Program-made: the position numbers and the translations under genes
The notes under the pieces: model-generated
What the model saw: the letters and a program-made list of their open reading frames with translations, nothing else
Database searches by the model: none
Told to the model about the DNA's origin: nothing
IMG/VR virus record: IMGVR_UViG_3300013102_000789
Location: 1-42,640 of that record
DNA from: a virus
Direction: 5' to 3' (one strand)
DNA: 42,640 nucleotides
Part shown: piece by piece, positions 5,304 through 12,389 of the stretch
Numbering within the stretch: the first letter of the stretch is position 1
How the letters are laid out: every line of letters begins with the position of its first letter

Positions 5304-5524
5304 CAGATGTTGTCCTCTTCCCGTACTTCGTGCTGGTGCGGATCGACCAAGCCCAGCGCCGCGTTCAGGGCGTCGAGCGTGGTCCAGATCCCGCCGTGGC
5401 GGTCGTACTTGTACCGGATACCCTGGCGTTCTGCCCAGCGCCGCACGGTTGCCGCTCGGGGCGGCGGGCCTTGGGGGGTGCACAGTTCCTGCAGGACGTT
5501 GAATTGCACAATGCGGCTGCTCAA
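5303..5524 (-). CDS. DUF4224-like small protein, possible excisionase-type DNA-binding protein
   Basis: A 73-residue protein starting at TTG (5524), which overlaps the upstream stop as TTGA; a GTG five codons later is the alternative. Its core, PRAATVRRWAERQGIRYKY followed by a GG-turn and WTTLDALNAALGL, has the shape of DUF4224: a small helix-turn-helix resembling excisionases. It lies directly before int with a one-base overlap, the usual place for a recombination directionality factor. The directionality role is inferred from position and fold only. Confidence 0.75.
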   Translation of the reverse strand: MSSRIVQFNVLQELCTPQGPPPRAATVRRWAERQGIRYKYDRHGGIWTTLDALNAALGLVDPHQHEVREEDNI

Positions 5525-6210: not shown

Positions 6211-6483
6211 TTACAGGGTGTCGGCCAGGTCTACGCCTGGCGCTTGGTCGGGGCGGTGGGCATTGCCCAACACCTTTCGCATTTCGTCCGCGATGTACGC
6301 GGCTACGGCGGCGACGTGGTCAAGGGTGATCGGCGAGGGCTGATCGGTGTCCAGCAACGCAAGCAGATCCGCTGCGCGCTGGGCCTGCCAGAGCCGGTCG
6401 ATATCGAGTTCGTGCACGCAGTAGTGGATGCTGTTCAGCACCTCGGCCGGCGTCCGGGCCGCGTCGCGGATGTACGCGCTCAT
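6211..6483 (-). CDS. Hypothetical phage protein, 90 aa
   Basis: Starts at ATG 6483, overlapping the stop of the upstream gene by four bases (ATGA). The protein is acidic and helical (AEVLNSIHYCVHELDIDRL, then DHVAAVAAYIADEMRKVLG), with no recognised motif. Third gene from the end of the helical small-protein cluster in the int operon; 71 bp separate it from the 46-residue gene. Role unknown. Confidence 0.75.
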   Translation of the reverse strand: MSAYIRDAARTPAEVLNSIHYCVHELDIDRLWQAQRAADLLALLDTDQPSPITLDHVAAVAAYIADEMRKVLGNAHRPDQAPGVDLADTL

Positions 6484-6731
6484 GAAAGCGCTCCCCGGCC
6501 GGCGTTCGGCACGGTGGCCTGGCAATGCTCCCACCGGGCTTTGACCTGATCGATGGCGGTCTGGATCTCGCCCAGCGTCAGCTGTGCCGGCGTCTTTCCG
6601 GCGCCGAGCAGGCGCGCAAAGAGACCCTGCCAGCAGGCATGGTTCCATTCGGTGGTGTCGGCGATCTGGCCGAAAAAGTGTGCGAGCTGGCGCGCAGCAT
6701 GAGCGGGCGCAACTTGGGTGTCGTGCGACAT
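6480..6731 (-). CDS. First gene of the int operon, 83-aa hypothetical protein
   Basis: A helical, Trp-containing protein (AARQLAHFFGQIADTTEW, then LTLGEIQTAIDQVKARWEH) of unknown family. The ATG at 6731 follows AGGAG. That ribosome binding site directly abuts the 7-nt block AGCCTAG, one of the two sequences complementary to the loops of the antisense RNA at 6797-6872, and also sits in the palindrome GGAGACGTCTCC (6733-6744). Translation of this gene is therefore the likely direct target of the RNA. By analogy with the first genes under C4 control in P1, a host-interfering or anti-immunity function is possible but not shown. Confidence 0.8.
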   Translation of the reverse strand: MSHDTQVAPAHAARQLAHFFGQIADTTEWNHACWQGLFARLLGAGKTPAQLTLGEIQTAIDQVKARWEHCQATVPNAGRGALS

Positions 6732-6743
6732 CGGAGACGTCTC

Positions 6744-6780
6744 CTAGGCTTGAGATGTGATCTCGGGGAGACGTTCTTAC
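6744..6780 (-). promoter_or_regulatory. Downstream target site of the antisense RNA
   Basis: On the minus strand the site reads TAAGAAC, 22 nt, AGCCTAG. Both 7-nt blocks are complementary to the ncRNA loops (GUUCUUA and CUAGGCU). The 22-nt insert contains GAGAT-CAC-ATCTC, a hairpin that would bring the blocks together. The second block abuts the AGGAG of the 6731 start. Confidence 0.75.
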
Positions 6781-6796
6781 GCGCCGCACCGAGAGT

Positions 6797-6872
6797 GTCG
6801 GGAGGTTAAGAACCGAGCCTAGTCGGCGGGCCTGATTCCCCTTTCGGGTGTTGTATTCGGCCCCCTCCCGAC
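6797..6872 (-). ncRNA. C4/CI-type antisense immunity RNA
   Basis: The 76-nt minus-strand segment folds like a tRNA. A perfect 9-bp closing stem (GTCGGGAGG with CCTCCCGAC) encloses GGGCC/GGCCC containing a CCC-GAAA-GGG hairpin, then CCGA-CUAGGC-UCGG, then single-stranded GUUCUUAA. The loop CUAGGCU and the tail GUUCUUA match, by complementarity, two 7-nt blocks present both upstream (6944-6962) and downstream (6744-6780) in the same transcript. This is the arrangement of phage P1/P7 C4 RNA and P4 CI RNA, where pairing stops translation and causes premature termination of the operon. Size and fold agree with those families. Which promoter makes it is unclear, because a terminator lies between it and the upstream target. 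Confidence 0.8.
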
Positions 6873-6908
6873 GCAGGAAAATGCGTCGGCCGCCCGGATT
6901 AAGGGCGC

Positions 6909-6939
6909 AAAAAAACCGCGATGTCTGACGGGCGCGGTT
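6909..6939 (-). terminator. Leader terminator between upstream target and antisense RNA
   Basis: Reading the minus strand, AACCGCG pairs with CGCGGTT across a 12-nt loop and runs into seven Ts. It lies 5 bp after the upstream target site, so pairing there could change termination. Confidence 0.8.
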
Positions 6940-6943
6940 ACCG

Positions 6944-6962
6944 CTAGGCTTGGAGTTCTTAC
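6944..6962 (-). promoter_or_regulatory. Upstream target site of the antisense RNA
   Basis: On the minus strand it reads TAAGAAC, 4 nt, AGCCTAG, the same two blocks as at 6744-6780 in the same order but closer together. It corresponds to seqA of P4 or a1/b1 of P1. A possible promoter for the leader is TTGACA at 7005-7000 (minus) with a poor -10. Confidence 0.7.
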
Positions 6963-7050
6963 GCTCCTTGCGGCGGACTTTGCCCTCGATATTTGCGGGT
7001 GTCAAGCACCACGTGAACATGGCGGCGAGCCAGATCAGCGCAAAGCGACC

Positions 7051-7103
7051 TGTAGCCATGCGGCTACAAAGTGCTTGACCACATGTAGCCGTTAGGCTAC
7101 ATT
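7051..7103 (+). promoter_or_regulatory. Promoter and twin operators of the toxin-antitoxin operon
   Basis: TTGACC (7075-7080), a 17-bp spacer and TACATT (7098-7103) make a good sigma-70 promoter. Two identical palindromes TGTAGCC-N4-GGCTACA lie at 7051-7068 and 7084-7101, 33 bp apart (about three helical turns); the second covers the spacer and -10. This fits autorepression by the antitoxin. Confidence 0.8.
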
Positions 7104-7110
7104 TTGAACC

Positions 7111-7398
7111 ATGGAAACGAAGCGCACCCCCCAGTTCACCGCATGGATCGACGGCCTGAAGGACATCACGGGACGCGCTCGCATTCTGGCCCGCATCCGC
7201 CGCTTGGCCGATGGCAACCCGGGCGACCACCGGAACCTGACCGGCGGCGTCTCGGAACTGCGCGTCGATGTGGGTCCGGGTTACCGGGTGTACTACACCC
7301 AGCGGGGAAACGAGTTGATCATCCTGCTGGTGGGCGGCGACAAGGCTAGCCAGCAGCGGGACATCGACAAAGCGAAGGAAATAGCCCGCGCCCTCTGA
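7111..7398 (+). CDS. RelE/HigB-type toxin (phage Gp49-like)
   Basis: A 95-residue protein matching the compact RelE-fold toxins annotated as addiction module killer proteins: TPQFTAWIDGLKDITGRARILARIRRLADG at the N-terminus (two stretches), then GVSELRVDVGPGYRVYYTQRG and ELIILLVGGDK. The GYRVYY strand and the C-terminal KAKEIAR tail are typical. Family members cleave mRNA on the ribosome. The gene precedes its antitoxin, the reversed order usual for HigBA. The ATG at 7111 lies 7 bp after the promoter -10, so the transcript may be nearly leaderless. Confidence 0.9.
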   Translation: METKRTPQFTAWIDGLKDITGRARILARIRRLADGNPGDHRNLTGGVSELRVDVGPGYRVYYTQRGNELIILLVGGDKASQQRDIDKAKEIARAL

Positions 7399-7473
7399 GG
7401 GGCGGGCAGCAGCGTCACGAAGTACCGAAACATCCAAGTCACGGAACAACGAAGCAAACGGAGTCACACAGTC

Positions 7474-7776
7474 ATGGCAGCCAAGAAGAAGATTCAGCTG
7501 GAGACGTTCGACGTCGCCGAACACCTGCGCACCCCGGAGGAAATGGCCGCGTACCTGGACGCCTGCATCATCGAGAGCGACGGCGACTCGGCCTTCATCG
7601 CCAAGGCGCTCGGCGACATCGCCCGTGCCCAGGGCATGAGCAAGGTTGCCCGCGACGCTGGTGTATCGCGTGAGAGCCTCTACCGCGCCCTGTCCGGCGA
7701 ACGCAGCCCGGACTTTGCCACCATCCTCAAGGTGACGCGCGCCCTCGGCGTGCAGTTGCACGCGAGCGCTGCCTGA
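7474..7776 (+). CDS. HigA-like antitoxin with XRE-type helix-turn-helix
   Basis: A 100-residue protein. Residues 10-50 (FDVAEHLRTPEEMAAYLDAC and onward) form the toxin-binding half and residues 52-95 the DNA-binding half: ARAQGMSKVARDAGVSRESL followed by YRALSGERSPDFATILKV. This is the putative addiction module antidote family paired with RelE/Gp49-like toxins. It begins 75 bp after the toxin stop, behind ACGGAG. It is expected to neutralise the toxin and repress the operon through the palindromes at 7051-7101. Confidence 0.9.
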   Translation: MAAKKKIQLETFDVAEHLRTPEEMAAYLDACIIESDGDSAFIAKALGDIARAQGMSKVARDAGVSRESLYRALSGERSPDFATILKVTRALGVQLHASAA

Positions 7777-7779
7777 CCG

Positions 7780-7971
7780 ATGGGCCAGGCGGAGCCGGGC
7801 AAGGTCGCCCTGCATGCGTGGGACGCTACGGACAACCTGCGAAGCGAGGACGACGTTCGGATGTTCTTGGAGGCCAGCAGGGAGCAAGCGGGTAGCGACC
7901 CGCAGTTCATGGCTTTGGCACAGGCCATCGTTGACCTGGCGCGCAAGCGCTGGAGGTTGACCGATCGATAG
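7780..7971 (+). CDS. HTH-less paralogue of the antitoxin
   Basis: A 63-residue protein starting 3 bp after the antitoxin stop. Its core (WDATDNLRSEDDVRMFLEAS, then DPQFMALAQAIVDLARKR) lines up with the N-terminal half of the antitoxin (FDVAEHLRTPEEMAAYLDAC, then DSAFIAKALGDIARAQ), then ends before any helix-turn-helix. It looks like a duplicated antitoxin cut back to its toxin-binding half. It could bind toxin without DNA, or dimerise with the antitoxin and alter repression. It is convergent with the primase gene, 5 bp away. Confidence 0.75.
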   Translation: MGQAEPGKVALHAWDATDNLRSEDDVRMFLEASREQAGSDPQFMALAQAIVDLARKRWRLTDR

Positions 7972-7976
7972 GGTGT

Positions 7977-10679
7977 TCATGCCTTGAACACCCAGCATTT
8001 GACCGTGGTGGCGGCGCCCATGGCGCCCTGACGGATAGCACTGTTCACCGCGACGTTCGTTTCCAGGCACTTATGCCGCCGGGAATCGCGCAGCAGCGAG
8101 CGCAGAACCTTGAGGTCGGCCAGCTGCTGCGAATGGAATGCAGCCTTCGCGGCGAACTCGTTGAGGTTGATGGCGATCCGCCCCGGATCGCGAGAGTGAT
8201 TGACCGCCGGCATCCCCCCGTTCGTAGTTTCCAGATACTCGTAGACCTCCCAGAACTCGTTGACCAGGGCGTTATCTGCGCTGACGGCGCTCTGGCGTTC
8301 AAGGGCGGCGACCACCAGCGCCTCCCGCGTAGCGACCACCATTTCCTCCGGGATCTCCAACACCAGCCGCAGGGCGTCCAGCAACGCCAGCATCTGCGCG
8401 TGATTCTTGATGACGCGTTCCATGCGCAGTTCCCCGCGCTCGCGCAGCTTGGCCTCATAGAAGCGCGCGCGCTCGGCGAACTTTTCCATGATCTGGCTCT
8501 CGGCACGCGCGGCGCGGATCAGGAAATGGCTCAGTTGCTCCACCTGCAGGCCATTGAGGTTGTCTGCCGCAATGCGGCTCTCGGTCGTGACCTGCGGCTT
8601 GCGGAAGTGCAGCTTGACGATACGCGTCAGGATCGCCTCGCTGGCGTCCACCGCAGCATTTTGGCTGATGACGATGGTGCCCCGGAACGGAGGTTCATAG
8701 GTGTCGTTGCCGCCGTTGCGCACGCCACGCGTGGCGAGCGTGCCGCCGCCGTAGTAGTCCTTCAATTCATCCCATTCAAACGACTTGGCGTGCGAGCGAT
8801 CGGCATCGCTGCGGTCGGCTTCCAGCAGCACCACTGGCATGCCCGAAATCTGGCCCATGGCGCGGGCGCGGCCGGCCTTGGATGACTTGGCCGGGTCGAA
8901 GCCCTCGTAGTCGCTGCGGCCCAGCAGCTTCCACAGGAAGGTCAGCAGGGTGGTCTTGCCGGCACCGGCCTCACCGGTCGCCTCCAAGAAAGGGAACGAC
9001 TTGTGCGCGCTGCGGATCTGATTGGCGTACAGCGAGCCGAACCAGAACGTAAGCGCCACCATGCCGTGGGTGCCGAAGCACGTCCACATCCACTGCAGCC
9101 ACTCGTTGCGCTGCTTCTCCGGGTCACGCTGGATATACAGGCGAATGGACTTCTGCGTGGTCTTCACCCGCAGGTTCTTGAACTCGAAATAGTCCTCCGC
9201 ATTGGCGAAGCTCAGTTCGCCGTCGCGCACCGCAACGTCGCCCAAGATGTAGGACTTGTGTTCCTCGCTGTAGCCGACGAAGTCGATGGTCTGGACCTTG
9301 GTGATGTCGTACAGCACGTCCCGAATGATGCAGTCCAGCTGGTGACCGGTACCGGTGAAGACGGCACCCTGCGCCATGCTGATGAGGCGCTTCTTGAACT
9401 CGCTGGCGCTGGCGACCTGGGCACCGGTAAATGTGCCTTTCACGGGTGGCGCATCGTGCGGGAAGTTGACGCGGAAGAAGTACCAGCTTTCGTCAGTCGC
9501 TTCATGACTCTGGAAGTAGAGCGCCTCGGGATAGCAGTTGGCGATTTCTTCCACGCTGCAGCAGGCGCGGCGAATCTTGTCGGCCTCGTCGGCGTCCAGT
9601 TCCTCGTCAGGGTCTTCCTGACGCTTGGCGCGCTCCTGGCACAGCTTGTCGAACTTGACGCTGTCAAAGCTGAACCAAAACAGGCGCGAGCGGTGTTCAA
9701 GATGGAACTCGCGGCGCTGGGTATGGCCGTACATCAGCAGCCCTTTCTCGATGGCAGACCAAGCCAGCAGCACGTCGCCCTGGTAGCGGGCCTCGGTGAT
9801 GTCGACATCCCACTGCGCCTGGCGCGCGTCGGCGTCATTGATGATGGAGGCCCGAAGGTGCAGATCGTTCCAGTCGGTCTTCTTCCCCGGCTTCTGCGGG
9901 ATCAGTGCGGCGCGGCTCTTGAAGCCCAAGGACTCGGCCCGGCGGGCATGCTTGCGCACGTAGTCACGCGCAGTCGGCTCGTTGTCGTAGGCCCATACCA
10001 GCACCGGCAGGTTCCCGCTGCGCTGGTCGCGGAGGGCGCGCAGCGATTCCTCGGGGTAGCCGTTGCTGGACATGCCGGATGCCGCCGCGATTCCCTGCTG
10101 CAGCAGCGCGATGGCATCGAAGATACCCTCGGTGATCCAGACCTCTTTCACAGTCGGCAGCATTGCCTCAGCAGCGGGCGCGATCCACCACACGCCAGCG
10201 TAGCTCTGGCCCGGCATGAAACGAGCCTTCTGTTTGCCGAAGCGGTGGGCGCGGTCAATCAGGCGCTCCCAATAGCCGCCCTTGGTCAGCGGGAACCGCA
10301 CCGTCGCAGTGCCTTCCTTGGACTTGCGGTCGTAGTAGGCCTCTTGCGTGTAGAGGCCACGCAACGACGCAAGATCGAATCCACGCGAGTAGCGCAGGTA
10401 GGCATCAGCAGCGGCGTGCGGCTCCGTCTCCGTACGCTCATGGCGCTTGGACCAGTCATCAAACAGGTCGTCGTAGACATCCTTGACGCTCACCTCGTGC
10501 CCGCACTTGGCTTGGCGGCCGCAGCGCAGCACCCATGGCTTCTGGAAGCTGGTGTAAAGCTCCTTCTGACCACAGGCAGGGCACTTGCCGCCCCGCATGT
10601 ACTCGGTGCTGGGACGATGCTTGAGGCCGTAGTCCCGCTCGATGAGCTGCAGAACCTGTTGGCGGATGTCTTCTTGCAT
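7977..10679 (-). CDS. Phage primase-helicase
   Basis: A 900-residue replication protein. Residues 33-59 form a zinc ribbon (C33, C36, C53, C59). Residues 178-235 form a Toprim domain with EVWITEGIFDAIALLQQG and VWAYDNE, which would synthesise primers. A P-loop ATPase follows, with Walker A ATGEAGAGKTT near residues 567-577 and a Walker B-like region PVVLLEADRSD, fitting a ring helicase. It would start replication of the phage genome and takes the place of P2 gpA, although no rolling-circle endonuclease motif was seen. It is the last gene of the leftward early operon and is convergent with the toxin-antitoxin operon. Confidence 0.9.
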   Translation of the reverse strand: MQEDIRQQVLQLIERDYGLKHRPSTEYMRGGKCPACGQKELYTSFQKPWVLRCGRQAKCGHEVSVKDVYDDLFDDWSKRHERTETEPHAAADAYLRYSRGFDLASLRGLYTQEAYYDRKSKEGTATVRFPLTKGGYWERLIDRAHRFGKQKARFMPGQSYAGVWWIAPAAEAMLPTVKEVWITEGIFDAIALLQQGIAAASGMSSNGYPEESLRALRDQRSGNLPVLVWAYDNEPTARDYVRKHARRAESLGFKSRAALIPQKPGKKTDWNDLHLRASIINDADARQAQWDVDITEARYQGDVLLAWSAIEKGLLMYGHTQRREFHLEHRSRLFWFSFDSVKFDKLCQERAKRQEDPDEELDADEADKIRRACCSVEEIANCYPEALYFQSHEATDESWYFFRVNFPHDAPPVKGTFTGAQVASASEFKKRLISMAQGAVFTGTGHQLDCIIRDVLYDITKVQTIDFVGYSEEHKSYILGDVAVRDGELSFANAEDYFEFKNLRVKTTQKSIRLYIQRDPEKQRNEWLQWMWTCFGTHGMVALTFWFGSLYANQIRSAHKSFPFLEATGEAGAGKTTLLTFLWKLLGRSDYEGFDPAKSSKAGRARAMGQISGMPVVLLEADRSDADRSHAKSFEWDELKDYYGGGTLATRGVRNGGNDTYEPPFRGTIVISQNAAVDASEAILTRIVKLHFRKPQVTTESRIAADNLNGLQVEQLSHFLIRAARAESQIMEKFAERARFYEAKLRERGELRMERVIKNHAQMLALLDALRLVLEIPEEMVVATREALVVAALERQSAVSADNALVNEFWEVYEYLETTNGGMPAVNHSRDPGRIAINLNEFAAKAAFHSQQLADLKVLRSLLRDSRRHKCLETNVAVNSAIRQGAMGAATTVKCWVFKA

Positions 10680-11270: not shown

Positions 11271-11597
11271 TCAGTGGTCGGCGGGGAGCGGCAACGCGTC
11301 GAGCAGGTCGGGCTGGTTGCCGCTGTGCTGCAGCCGGTGTGCGCGCTGTGCGATCTCGCGTGCGTACGCCGTGCTGGGGGGTAGGTCGGTCGGCCTCGCA
11401 TGGGGCAGGCCGCTTGGGCTGGCAACGCCGGTCAACTCGGTGTGCCCGGTAAAGGCGGCCGAGCAGACCGGGTTGGTGCAGTTGAACGAGTCGTGGCGCA
11501 GATGGTCATGGCTCAGGTGGCTGGTGCGCTTCACCAGAGGCGACTTGCAGAAGTCGCACCTGAAAACGGTCTTCCGACGTGGGCCGTATGCGGACAT
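11271..11597 (-). CDS. ogr: Ogr/Delta-type zinc-finger activator of late genes
   Basis: A 108-residue protein with C14-x2-C17-x22-C40-x4-C45, exactly the spacing of the P2 Ogr/P4 Delta zinc finger, in a recognisable context (FRCDFCKSPLVKRTSHLS). Ogr proteins bind upstream of late promoters and recruit RNA polymerase through its alpha subunit. The C-terminal 50 residues are an extension beyond P2 Ogr (72 residues). Here the gene is in the leftward early operon, 6 bp after the gp16-like regulator, so early transcription would switch on the late operons. Confidence 0.88.
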   Translation of the reverse strand: MSAYGPRRKTVFRCDFCKSPLVKRTSHLSHDHLRHDSFNCTNPVCSAAFTGHTELTGVASPSGLPHARPTDLPPSTAYAREIAQRAHRLQHSGNQPDLLDALPLPADH

Positions 11598-11603
11598 GGG
11601 GAC

Positions 11604-11819
11604 TCAGCTGGCCGAGGGGCCAACGGTGCCGGCCTTGATGCCCAGCACAACGGCGGCTTTATGCGCTTCGCCGCGGCGACCCTTGTTGCGGCCGGACAGC
11701 ACCAGCCAGGTAGCCCGCGTATCGAGGTTGTGGGTGCGGGCGAACTCCGCGATGGAGACGCCCTTCTCGTCCAGTTCCTTACGCACCTGGGGTGCGGTTT
11801 TTAGGACAGGTTTGGACAT
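11604..11819 (-). CDS. BcepMu gp16-family DNA-binding regulator (Cox-like position)
   Basis: A 71-residue protein (start ATG 11819; a longer frame upstream crosses the promoter and was not chosen). The pattern APQVRKELDEKGVSIAEFAR, then GRNKGRRGEAHKAAVVLGIK is that of the BcepMu gp16 phage-associated family, with a small helix-turn-helix. First gene of the leftward early operon and divergent from the repressor, where P2 has cox; it may act as the opposing regulator. That role is inferred from position. Confidence 0.82.
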   Translation of the reverse strand: MSKPVLKTAPQVRKELDEKGVSIAEFARTHNLDTRATWLVLSGRNKGRRGEAHKAAVVLGIKAGTVGPSAS

Positions 11820-11857
11820 ATCGGTCACCAAAGTGTGATTATTGTGTACTTGGGGTA

Positions 11858-11886
11858 ACGATAGTGCGAAAAAACGCACCAGTCAA
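11858..11886 (-). promoter_or_regulatory. Leftward early promoter with repressor operator in its spacer
   Basis: On the minus strand: TTGACT (11886-11881), a 17-bp spacer, TATCGT (11863-11858). Sixteen of the 17 spacer bases are the palindrome GTGCG-N6-CGCAC (11864-11879). A repressor bound there would occlude both promoter elements. The transcript covers the gp16-like gene, ogr and the primase. Confidence 0.78.
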
Positions 11887-11903
11887 CATGGAAGGTACGA
11901 AAA

Positions 11904-12389
11904 ATGTCACTTACTGAGGATCCGAGGCACGGCGTGGGCGCACGGTTGCGCGTCGAGCGGGAACGACTGGGAATGAGCCAGGACGAGATGGGCACCCGCG
12001 CGGGGAAGAACAAAAACACCCAGATGCGCTACGAGACGGGGGTGAACTCGCCCACGGCGGCGTACCTGCACGACCTGGCCGACCTCGGCGTGGACATCGG
12101 CTATGTCCTGACCGGCTTCCCGACTGAACTGCACGACGAAGATGCCGAAATGCTCGCGCGCTTCCGGGTGGCGTCGCCAGAAATGCGGTTCGCGTTGCGC
12201 ATGATGCTGACCGCTCCAAAGGAGGCTGTGGAAGCGCAGGCGCAGGCGCAGCCGCAGCCGCAGGGCAGCGCGCCGCCGCTGGTTGGTGGCAACAATTCCG
12301 GCCAGGTCAATGCGGGTGCTGTCACGCAGGGCGACGTCAGCTTCCAGATCGGTTCGCGCAACAAGGGCGGTCGCAAACGGTCGAGTTGA
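11904..12389 (+). CDS. Phage repressor, XRE family
   Basis: A 161-residue protein with an N-terminal XRE helix-turn-helix (residues 13-60: LRVERERLGMSQDEMGTRAG, then YETGVNSPTAAYLHDLADLG) and a Gln/Pro/Ala linker (residues 112-124). There is no LexA-like protease domain, as expected for P2-type C repressors, which are not SOS-cleaved. ATG at 11904 follows GGAAGG. It is divergent from the early operon and is expected to bind the palindrome in the early promoter. The C-terminal tail (GNNSGQVNAGAVTQGDVSFQ) is of a type seen in Xanthomonadaceae phage repressors. Confidence 0.87.
   Translation: MSLTEDPRHGVGARLRVERERLGMSQDEMGTRAGKNKNTQMRYETGVNSPTAAYLHDLADLGVDIGYVLTGFPTELHDEDAEMLARFRVASPEMRFALRMMLTAPKEAVEAQAQAQPQPQGSAPPLVGGNNSGQVNAGAVTQGDVSFQIGSRNKGGRKRSS

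Follow-up and report, generated by a model that had tools for sequence, protein, structure and literature searches.

The leader of the integrase operon in this phage very probably encodes a C4-type antisense RNA of about 76 nt, a member of the sRNA-Xcc1 family (RF02221), which would repress gene 1 and the seven-gene operon. The window, i.e. the whole stretch of DNA analysed, comprises the 42,640 bases of one IMG/VR virus record, and the locus is read on its minus strand (Table 1). The original prediction had placed a C4/CI-type antisense RNA here. The type is supported by covariation of the RNA with its targets and by the exchange with genuine C4 RNAs in relatives, but the Rfam family is RF02221 and not C4 (RF01695).

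Layout of the locus

The RNA core has a predicted three-way fold (-38.4 kcal/mol, z -3.25; one of 200 shuffles was equally good), in which the 9-bp closing stem P1 is GUCGGGAGG/CCUCCCGAC and P2 holds the conserved core AAUACAA.ACCCGAAAGGGGAA. Its two antisense segments, a' and b', are complementary to one pair of targets upstream (b1, a1) and to a second pair downstream (b2, a2), and the fold prediction puts b1 in the loop of a GGAG/CUCC hairpin. The 76-nt fold with its closing stem, the complementarity of both segments to blocks on either side, the hairpin joining the downstream blocks next to the AGGAG and the terminator had all been proposed in the original prediction, and all were recovered from the sequence and the predicted fold, a2 even overlapping the AGGAG.

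Table 1. Features of the antisense RNA locus and of the operon downstream (window coordinates)
Feature	Position	Strand	Sequence or product	Basis and remarks
Candidate promoter	7005-7000, 6982-6977	minus	TTGACA, 17 nt spacer, CAAAGT	Inferred; -35 perfect, -10 weak (3/6)
Upstream target b1	6961-6955	minus	UAAGAAC	Sequence, fold, covariation (13 relatives)
Upstream target a1	6950-6944	minus	AGCCUAG	Sequence, fold, covariation (13 relatives)
Intrinsic terminator	6939-6909	minus	AACCGCG...CGCGGUU + U7	Sequence and fold; between upstream targets and RNA
Antisense RNA core	6872-6797	minus	76 nt	P1 (9 bp), P2, P3, junction J3/1; cmscan and fold
Antisense segment a'	6822-6816	minus	CUAGGCU	P3 loop; covaries with a1 and a2; family test
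Antisense segment b'	6813-6807	minus	GUUCUUA	Single-stranded J3/1; covaries with b1 and b2; family test
Downstream target b2	6779-6773	minus	UAAGAAC	Sequence, covariation
Predicted hairpin	6773-6738	minus	CGUCUCC/GGAGACG	6773-6767 with 6744-6738; pairs Shine-Dalgarno; flanked by b2 and a2
Downstream target a2	6750-6744	minus	AGCCUAG	Overlaps Shine-Dalgarno; sequence, covariation
Shine-Dalgarno of gene 1	6745-6741	minus	AGGAG	ATG at 6731-6729
Gene 1	6731-6480	minus	83 aa	phrog_26166; stop overlaps gene 2 start (ATGA)
Gene 2	6483-6211	minus	90 aa	phrog_14861; searched protein 6211-6480
Gene 3	6139-5999	minus	46 aa	
Gene 4	6002-5724	minus	92 aa	phrog_34716
Gene 5	5724-5521	minus	67 aa	DUF7696
Gene 6	5662-5303	minus	Excisionase-like	phrog_1266 (3e-5), weak DUF4224
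Gene 7 (int)	5303-4116	minus	Tyrosine integrase	

With flanks simulated at the dinucleotide frequencies of the real ones, none of 100,000 trials yielded the four matches of at least 7 nt together, and the product of the single probabilities for the four target matches in the window is 3.5e-6. RNAcofold gave no net gain for the RNA-target pair of the window and showed little preference for cognate pairs over those with relatives (mean -5.1 vs -4.2 kcal/mol), loop-loop contacts not being representable in this program. Such poor separation is to be expected where loops meet loops, but it lends the pairing no support. The segment 6725-6788, which includes the Shine-Dalgarno hairpin, has a fold z of -2.95; since the stem of this hairpin is nearly invariant in the relatives, it draws no support from covariation.

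The TTGACA of the candidate promoter and its spacing are conserved in most of the RNA-bearing relatives, and the terminator is present in all of those aligned. The leader promoter, with its weak -10, and the terminator, with its 12-nt loop, were both missed by a consensus scan, so both calls rest on reading and on conservation. A plasmid search with the window locus gave no match.

Assignment to an RNA family

The covariance search proposed with the original prediction did find a known family. By cmscan the RNA matches sRNA-Xcc1 (RF02221) over 6872-6789, model positions 1-87, with 76 bits against a gathering threshold of 53. The C4 model (RF01695, cut-off 45 bits) had no match in the window with E values as high as 10 allowed, and membership of the window RNA in C4 by covariance model was accordingly rejected. 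The leader scored 12 bits with isrK (RF01394), below the cut-off of 50, and no match in the window was reported for the c4-a1b1 model. In Rfam 15 RF02221 stands without a clan, and C4 and c4-a1b1 have a common one (CL00128). The sole cross-match seen was in one relative (L301; L-numbers are labels of relative loci), where a weak full-length C4 match of 17.5 bits covers the same stretch as the RF02221 match; we take it as a hint of distant kinship of the two families and no more.

The reading that best fits its targets is nevertheless that RF02221 is an antisense repressor of the C4 type. No paper tying sRNA-Xcc1 to C4 was found in the literature searched, and the novelty of the link is provisional.

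Covariation in close relatives and replacement by C4

The relatives of gene 1 are viral and chromosomal and include phage Smp131. Thirteen loci, Smp131 among them, combine a gene 1 relative with an RF02221 RNA, and their alignment, suggested earlier as a check, revealed that the loops covary with both target copies. Seven loop alleles (CUAGGCU, CUGUAUCC, CUACGUUC, CUGUGAUC, CUGACU, CUGUUGAC and CUUGUGC) and four tail alleles (GUUCUUA, GUUUCUA, GUUUUGAG and GUUAUGAG) occur in this set. With their own upstream and downstream copies the loops form 6-8 contiguous pairs and the tails 7-8; with differing alleles the matches drop to mostly 2-4 for the loop and 3-4 for the tail, the single exception being the loop of L293, which matches the CUGACU loci over 6. 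Loop and tail vary independently of each other: the loop allele is common to Smp131 and L301, their tails are different, and with the tail the target is altered in both of its copies.

The slot before the gene 1 homologues is filled by RF02221 in L126, L128, L131-L134, L293, L300, L301, Smp131 and the window, and by a genuine C4 RNA (RF01695, 61-83 bits) in 25 loci (L279-L292, L294-L298, L302, L304-L307 and L127). Two viral contigs (L127 and L129), whose gene 1 is 90% identical to that of the window, carry C4 in that place. The leaders of C4-bearing relatives often match c4-a1b1 and isrK, the latter with 50-57 bits in several, and by eye the same loop and tail matches are found in these relatives as in phage P1, which served as positive control. 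In nature, then, one RNA family has been exchanged for another before the same gene. The structure, both antisense segments, both target copies, their covariation and the replacement by C4 can be read directly in the sequences compared. Several such RNAs can coexist in one phage, as Escherichia phage PhiR5_2 (L006, PV340546) has a C4 RNA besides two RF02221 RNAs.

Targets across the RF02221 family

For a family-wide test, samples of loci were chosen mostly by the pattern of the RNA core and not by the target. After a first pass with 118 loci among the matches listed, 141 non-redundant loci with enough flank, again among the matches listed, were compared with mismatched RNA-flank pairs. Downstream matches of at least 7 nt were found for the own loop in 57% (8% in mismatched pairs) and for the own tail in 57% (9%), and upstream matches of this length in 79% (11%) and 70% (11%), respectively; the control is conservative for the tail, because mismatched pairs still have some alleles in common. 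Both segments matched over at least 6 nt downstream in 95 of these 141 loci (67% vs 7% mismatched) and upstream in 119 (84% vs 11%), always among the matches listed. The observed means were reached in none of 2000 permutations (z 17-23). In 88 of the 95 loci the tail target is the more 5' of the two, and the loop target typically adjoins or overlaps the Shine-Dalgarno of the next gene. By this evidence RF02221 is built like C4 and addresses the start of the gene that follows, which provides many annotated copies with testable targets.

The operon downstream

Open reading frames and profile matches agree with the earlier reading of seven genes ending in int. The true start of the excisionase-like gene 6 is probably a TTG near 5523. 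The protein of gene 1, 31 to 95% identical across the aligned relatives, has no Pfam or NCBIfam family; its AlphaFold model predicts three helices (pLDDT 79) and gave no significant Foldseek match in PDB or BFVD. It does match phrog_17048, labelled anti-repressor, at 6e-8. This label is doubtful and may derive from over-long ORFs through the RNA: gp37 of Smp131 (L002:5922-6494), annotated as anti-repressor, is a longer frame running through the RNA locus and gene 1, and the phrog_17048 match covers its last third. The actual Smp131 gene at this place is of about 80 aa. A similar over-long open frame is present in the window at 6211-8070.

Genes following RF02221 elsewhere

Elsewhere in the family the downstream genes are mostly phage antirepressors. 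Among the matches listed, 97 downstream proteins had Pfam hits to Bro-N (29), P22_AR_C (21), P22_AR_N (15), KilA-N (13), ORF6N (10), AntA (8), pRha (4) and SymE (2), where one protein may count repeatedly. In EHEC EDL933 the RNA is directly upstream of the phage antirepressor Ant, and its loop CUUAUUUG faces CAAAUAAGGAGG on the Shine-Dalgarno. An sRNA-Xcc1 of this strain, perhaps the copy at Ant, is reported to be strongly transcribed and hardly translated (PMC5331693).

RF02221 is present in all 35 searched genomes of one Xanthomonadaceae genus, taken as Xanthomonas from genome content and literature, with up to 13 copies per genome, and it occurs in many prophages as well. Some of the Xanthomonas copies precede SymE (PF08845), and here the loop target overlaps the symE Shine-Dalgarno: loop and target are CUUCGAG/CUCGAAG in L309 and L340-L342 and CCUACGA/UCGUAGG in L310, with a shorter match in L333. 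The symE frame of L309 is shortened. A locus of another species (L196) fits the pattern too. The RNAs preceding symE are thus candidates for antisense control of this gene, distinct from SymR. A 2025 survey found the cassette of symE and sRNA-Xcc1 to be the most widespread in Xanthomonas and noted that it must be regulated in another way than by SymR (PMC12444791); for this cassette, puzzling to that paper, the C4-type reading suggests a mechanism.

Other, chromosomal copies of the Xanthomonadaceae (L271, L273, L274, L311-L313, L334-L336 and L343-L365) keep the upstream loop and tail targets, with a loop match of 7-9 nt in nearly all, but lack a clear target downstream. Of the genes that follow them, two were tested (those of L311 and L312), and both belong to the XAC0095 family (NCBIfam T3SS_XAC0095). 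Repression of the next gene is therefore not universal in RF02221, and these copies may work in trans or have no target but their own leader.

Proposed mechanism and alternatives

The leader transcript would start near 6970 and read through the terminator at 6939-6909. Because this terminator sits between the candidate promoter and the RNA, making the RNA requires read-through or an unrecognised promoter. The RNA of about 76 nt would probably be cut out of the leader transcript, and its P3 loop and 3' junction would pair with the two sites around the start of gene 1, one of which overlaps the Shine-Dalgarno. Pairing would keep ribosomes off gene 1, and through translational coupling and polarity the whole operon, as far as the excisionase-like gene and int, would be expressed less; less translation of gene 1 should mean less of the rest, since genes 1 and 2 overlap (ATGA) and are followed by small genes, the excisionase-like gene and int. 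The operon would in this way be kept low while the prophage is dormant, and the RNA would tie the control of dormancy to excision and integration. Through the upstream target copy the RNA may act on its own leader, where it could cause early termination as CI does with seqA, or else the short terminated leader may sequester the RNA and so neutralise it. Transcription, processing, repression, polarity on int and the role of the upstream copy are what we infer from this arrangement.

The neutralising role would extend and not replace ribosome blocking: a short terminated leader with b1 and a1 would soak up the antisense RNA, gene 1 being off where read-through, and hence antisense RNA, dominates and on where the short leader does. 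We regard such a switch between two RNAs as conceivable, if on balance doubtful. The order promoter, targets, terminator, antisense RNA, targets is conserved in the relatives, and the leaders of the C4-bearing ones match isrK and c4-a1b1 above cut-off; the leader of the window, however, has its 12 bits with isrK against a cut-off of 50 and no reported c4-a1b1 match. There is a precedent in kind in Gifsy-1, where IsrK, the leader of the antirepressor operon, lifts anrP translation in trans by a factor of about 100 or more and processing of the read-through transcript leaves a stable RNA, STnc1160, of some 80 nt, but the authors explain the effect by pairing of IsrK with the orf45 mRNA, and constitutive expression of orf45 (STnc1160) failed to counteract it (PMC4825925). 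That pairing should mainly trigger premature transcription termination, as with P4 CI, rather than block the ribosome, appears rather unlikely to us. An intrinsic terminator does follow the upstream targets, which are the only ones retained by the chromosomal family copies, and the C4 and isrK profiles detect P4 CI/seqA (PMC10111431); yet the target letters lie outside the terminator stem, and the usual position of the loop target at the Shine-Dalgarno of the next gene points to translation.

A host-type RNA acting in trans on unlinked host mRNAs is what sRNA-Xcc1 was first taken for. As Chen 2011 is rendered in PMC12189769 and PMC12444791, it is trans-acting and under positive control by HrpG/HrpX, and both papers treat it as virulence-linked, with targets predicted in the host and even in the plant. 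The many Xanthomonas copies, some before XAC0095-family genes and without downstream targets, would suit such a function, but the sites that covary with loop and tail are adjacent ones, in this locus as in the family at large, and the type in the symE cassette also has its targets at the symE Shine-Dalgarno. For the window RNA we consider this quite improbable, and the cis targets suggest that the published function of sRNA-Xcc1 is incomplete. Hardly credible is the idea that the repeats are due to chance or are DNA sites: short repeated 7-mers taken alone might be operator half-sites, but these are complementary to two parts of a folded RNA, its loop and its junction, vary with both in relatives and keep their order, with the family-wide position at the Shine-Dalgarno and the low chance product already given for the window.

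Pairing of the window RNA at the gene 1 start thus remains the preferred reading. It may be speculated, though we would rate the combined proposal as unlikely, that RF02221 is a general antisense cartridge that can be re-aimed and brings its own decoy, the short terminated leader, together a switch of two RNAs. It would be placed in phages before antirepressors or operons of unknown function and in integron cassettes before symE toxin genes, and in Xanthomonas chromosomes its many copies would be reduced to the decoy arrangement and act in trans.

Relationship to known systems

With sRNA-Xcc1 the window RNA has the covariance family and the core in common; sRNA-Xcc1 has been described as a trans-acting, Hrp-controlled RNA of integrons, transposons and plasmids, whereas the window RNA is phage-borne and has cis targets. 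In C4 of P1 and P7, two short segments pair with the leader and block the ribosome. The likeness extends to the antisense segments in the P3 loop and in J3/1, to a target pair at the ribosome-binding site with another one upstream, to a similar size and to the same slot before homologous genes; the conserved core is different, and gene 1 of the window is not a known antirepressor. As in P4 CI with seqA and seqC, an antisense RNA lies between two target copies in the leader; Smp131 in addition has DNA primase and int genes after the RNA on the same strand. The main effect of P4 CI is transcription termination of the replication operon, while the loop target of the window is on the Shine-Dalgarno. 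The IsrK and c4-a1b1 leaders (RF01394, RF03163) likewise stand upstream of an antisense RNA, hold target copies and end in an intrinsic terminator, but the window leader does not reach the isrK cut-off. P22 Sar is a small antisense RNA that limits a phage antirepressor and is transcribed from the strand opposite to its target. Sar and the other antisense RNAs controlling antirepressors are likewise small; the window RNA, unlike Sar, belongs to the leader and shares the strand of its target.

Other regulatory genes of the window

The XRE repressor which had been proposed as a second layer is present as an XRE-type protein (11904-12389, plus strand). It stands opposite an HTH protein (11604-11879, minus), beside which an Ogr/Delta-like zinc finger is found (11271-11597, minus), so that the region 11271-12389 forms a second, protein-based switch. 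Divergent from the RNA are the genes of a type II toxin-antitoxin pair on the plus strand, composed of a Gp49/ParE-like toxin (7111-7398) and an HI1420-like antidote (7474-7776).
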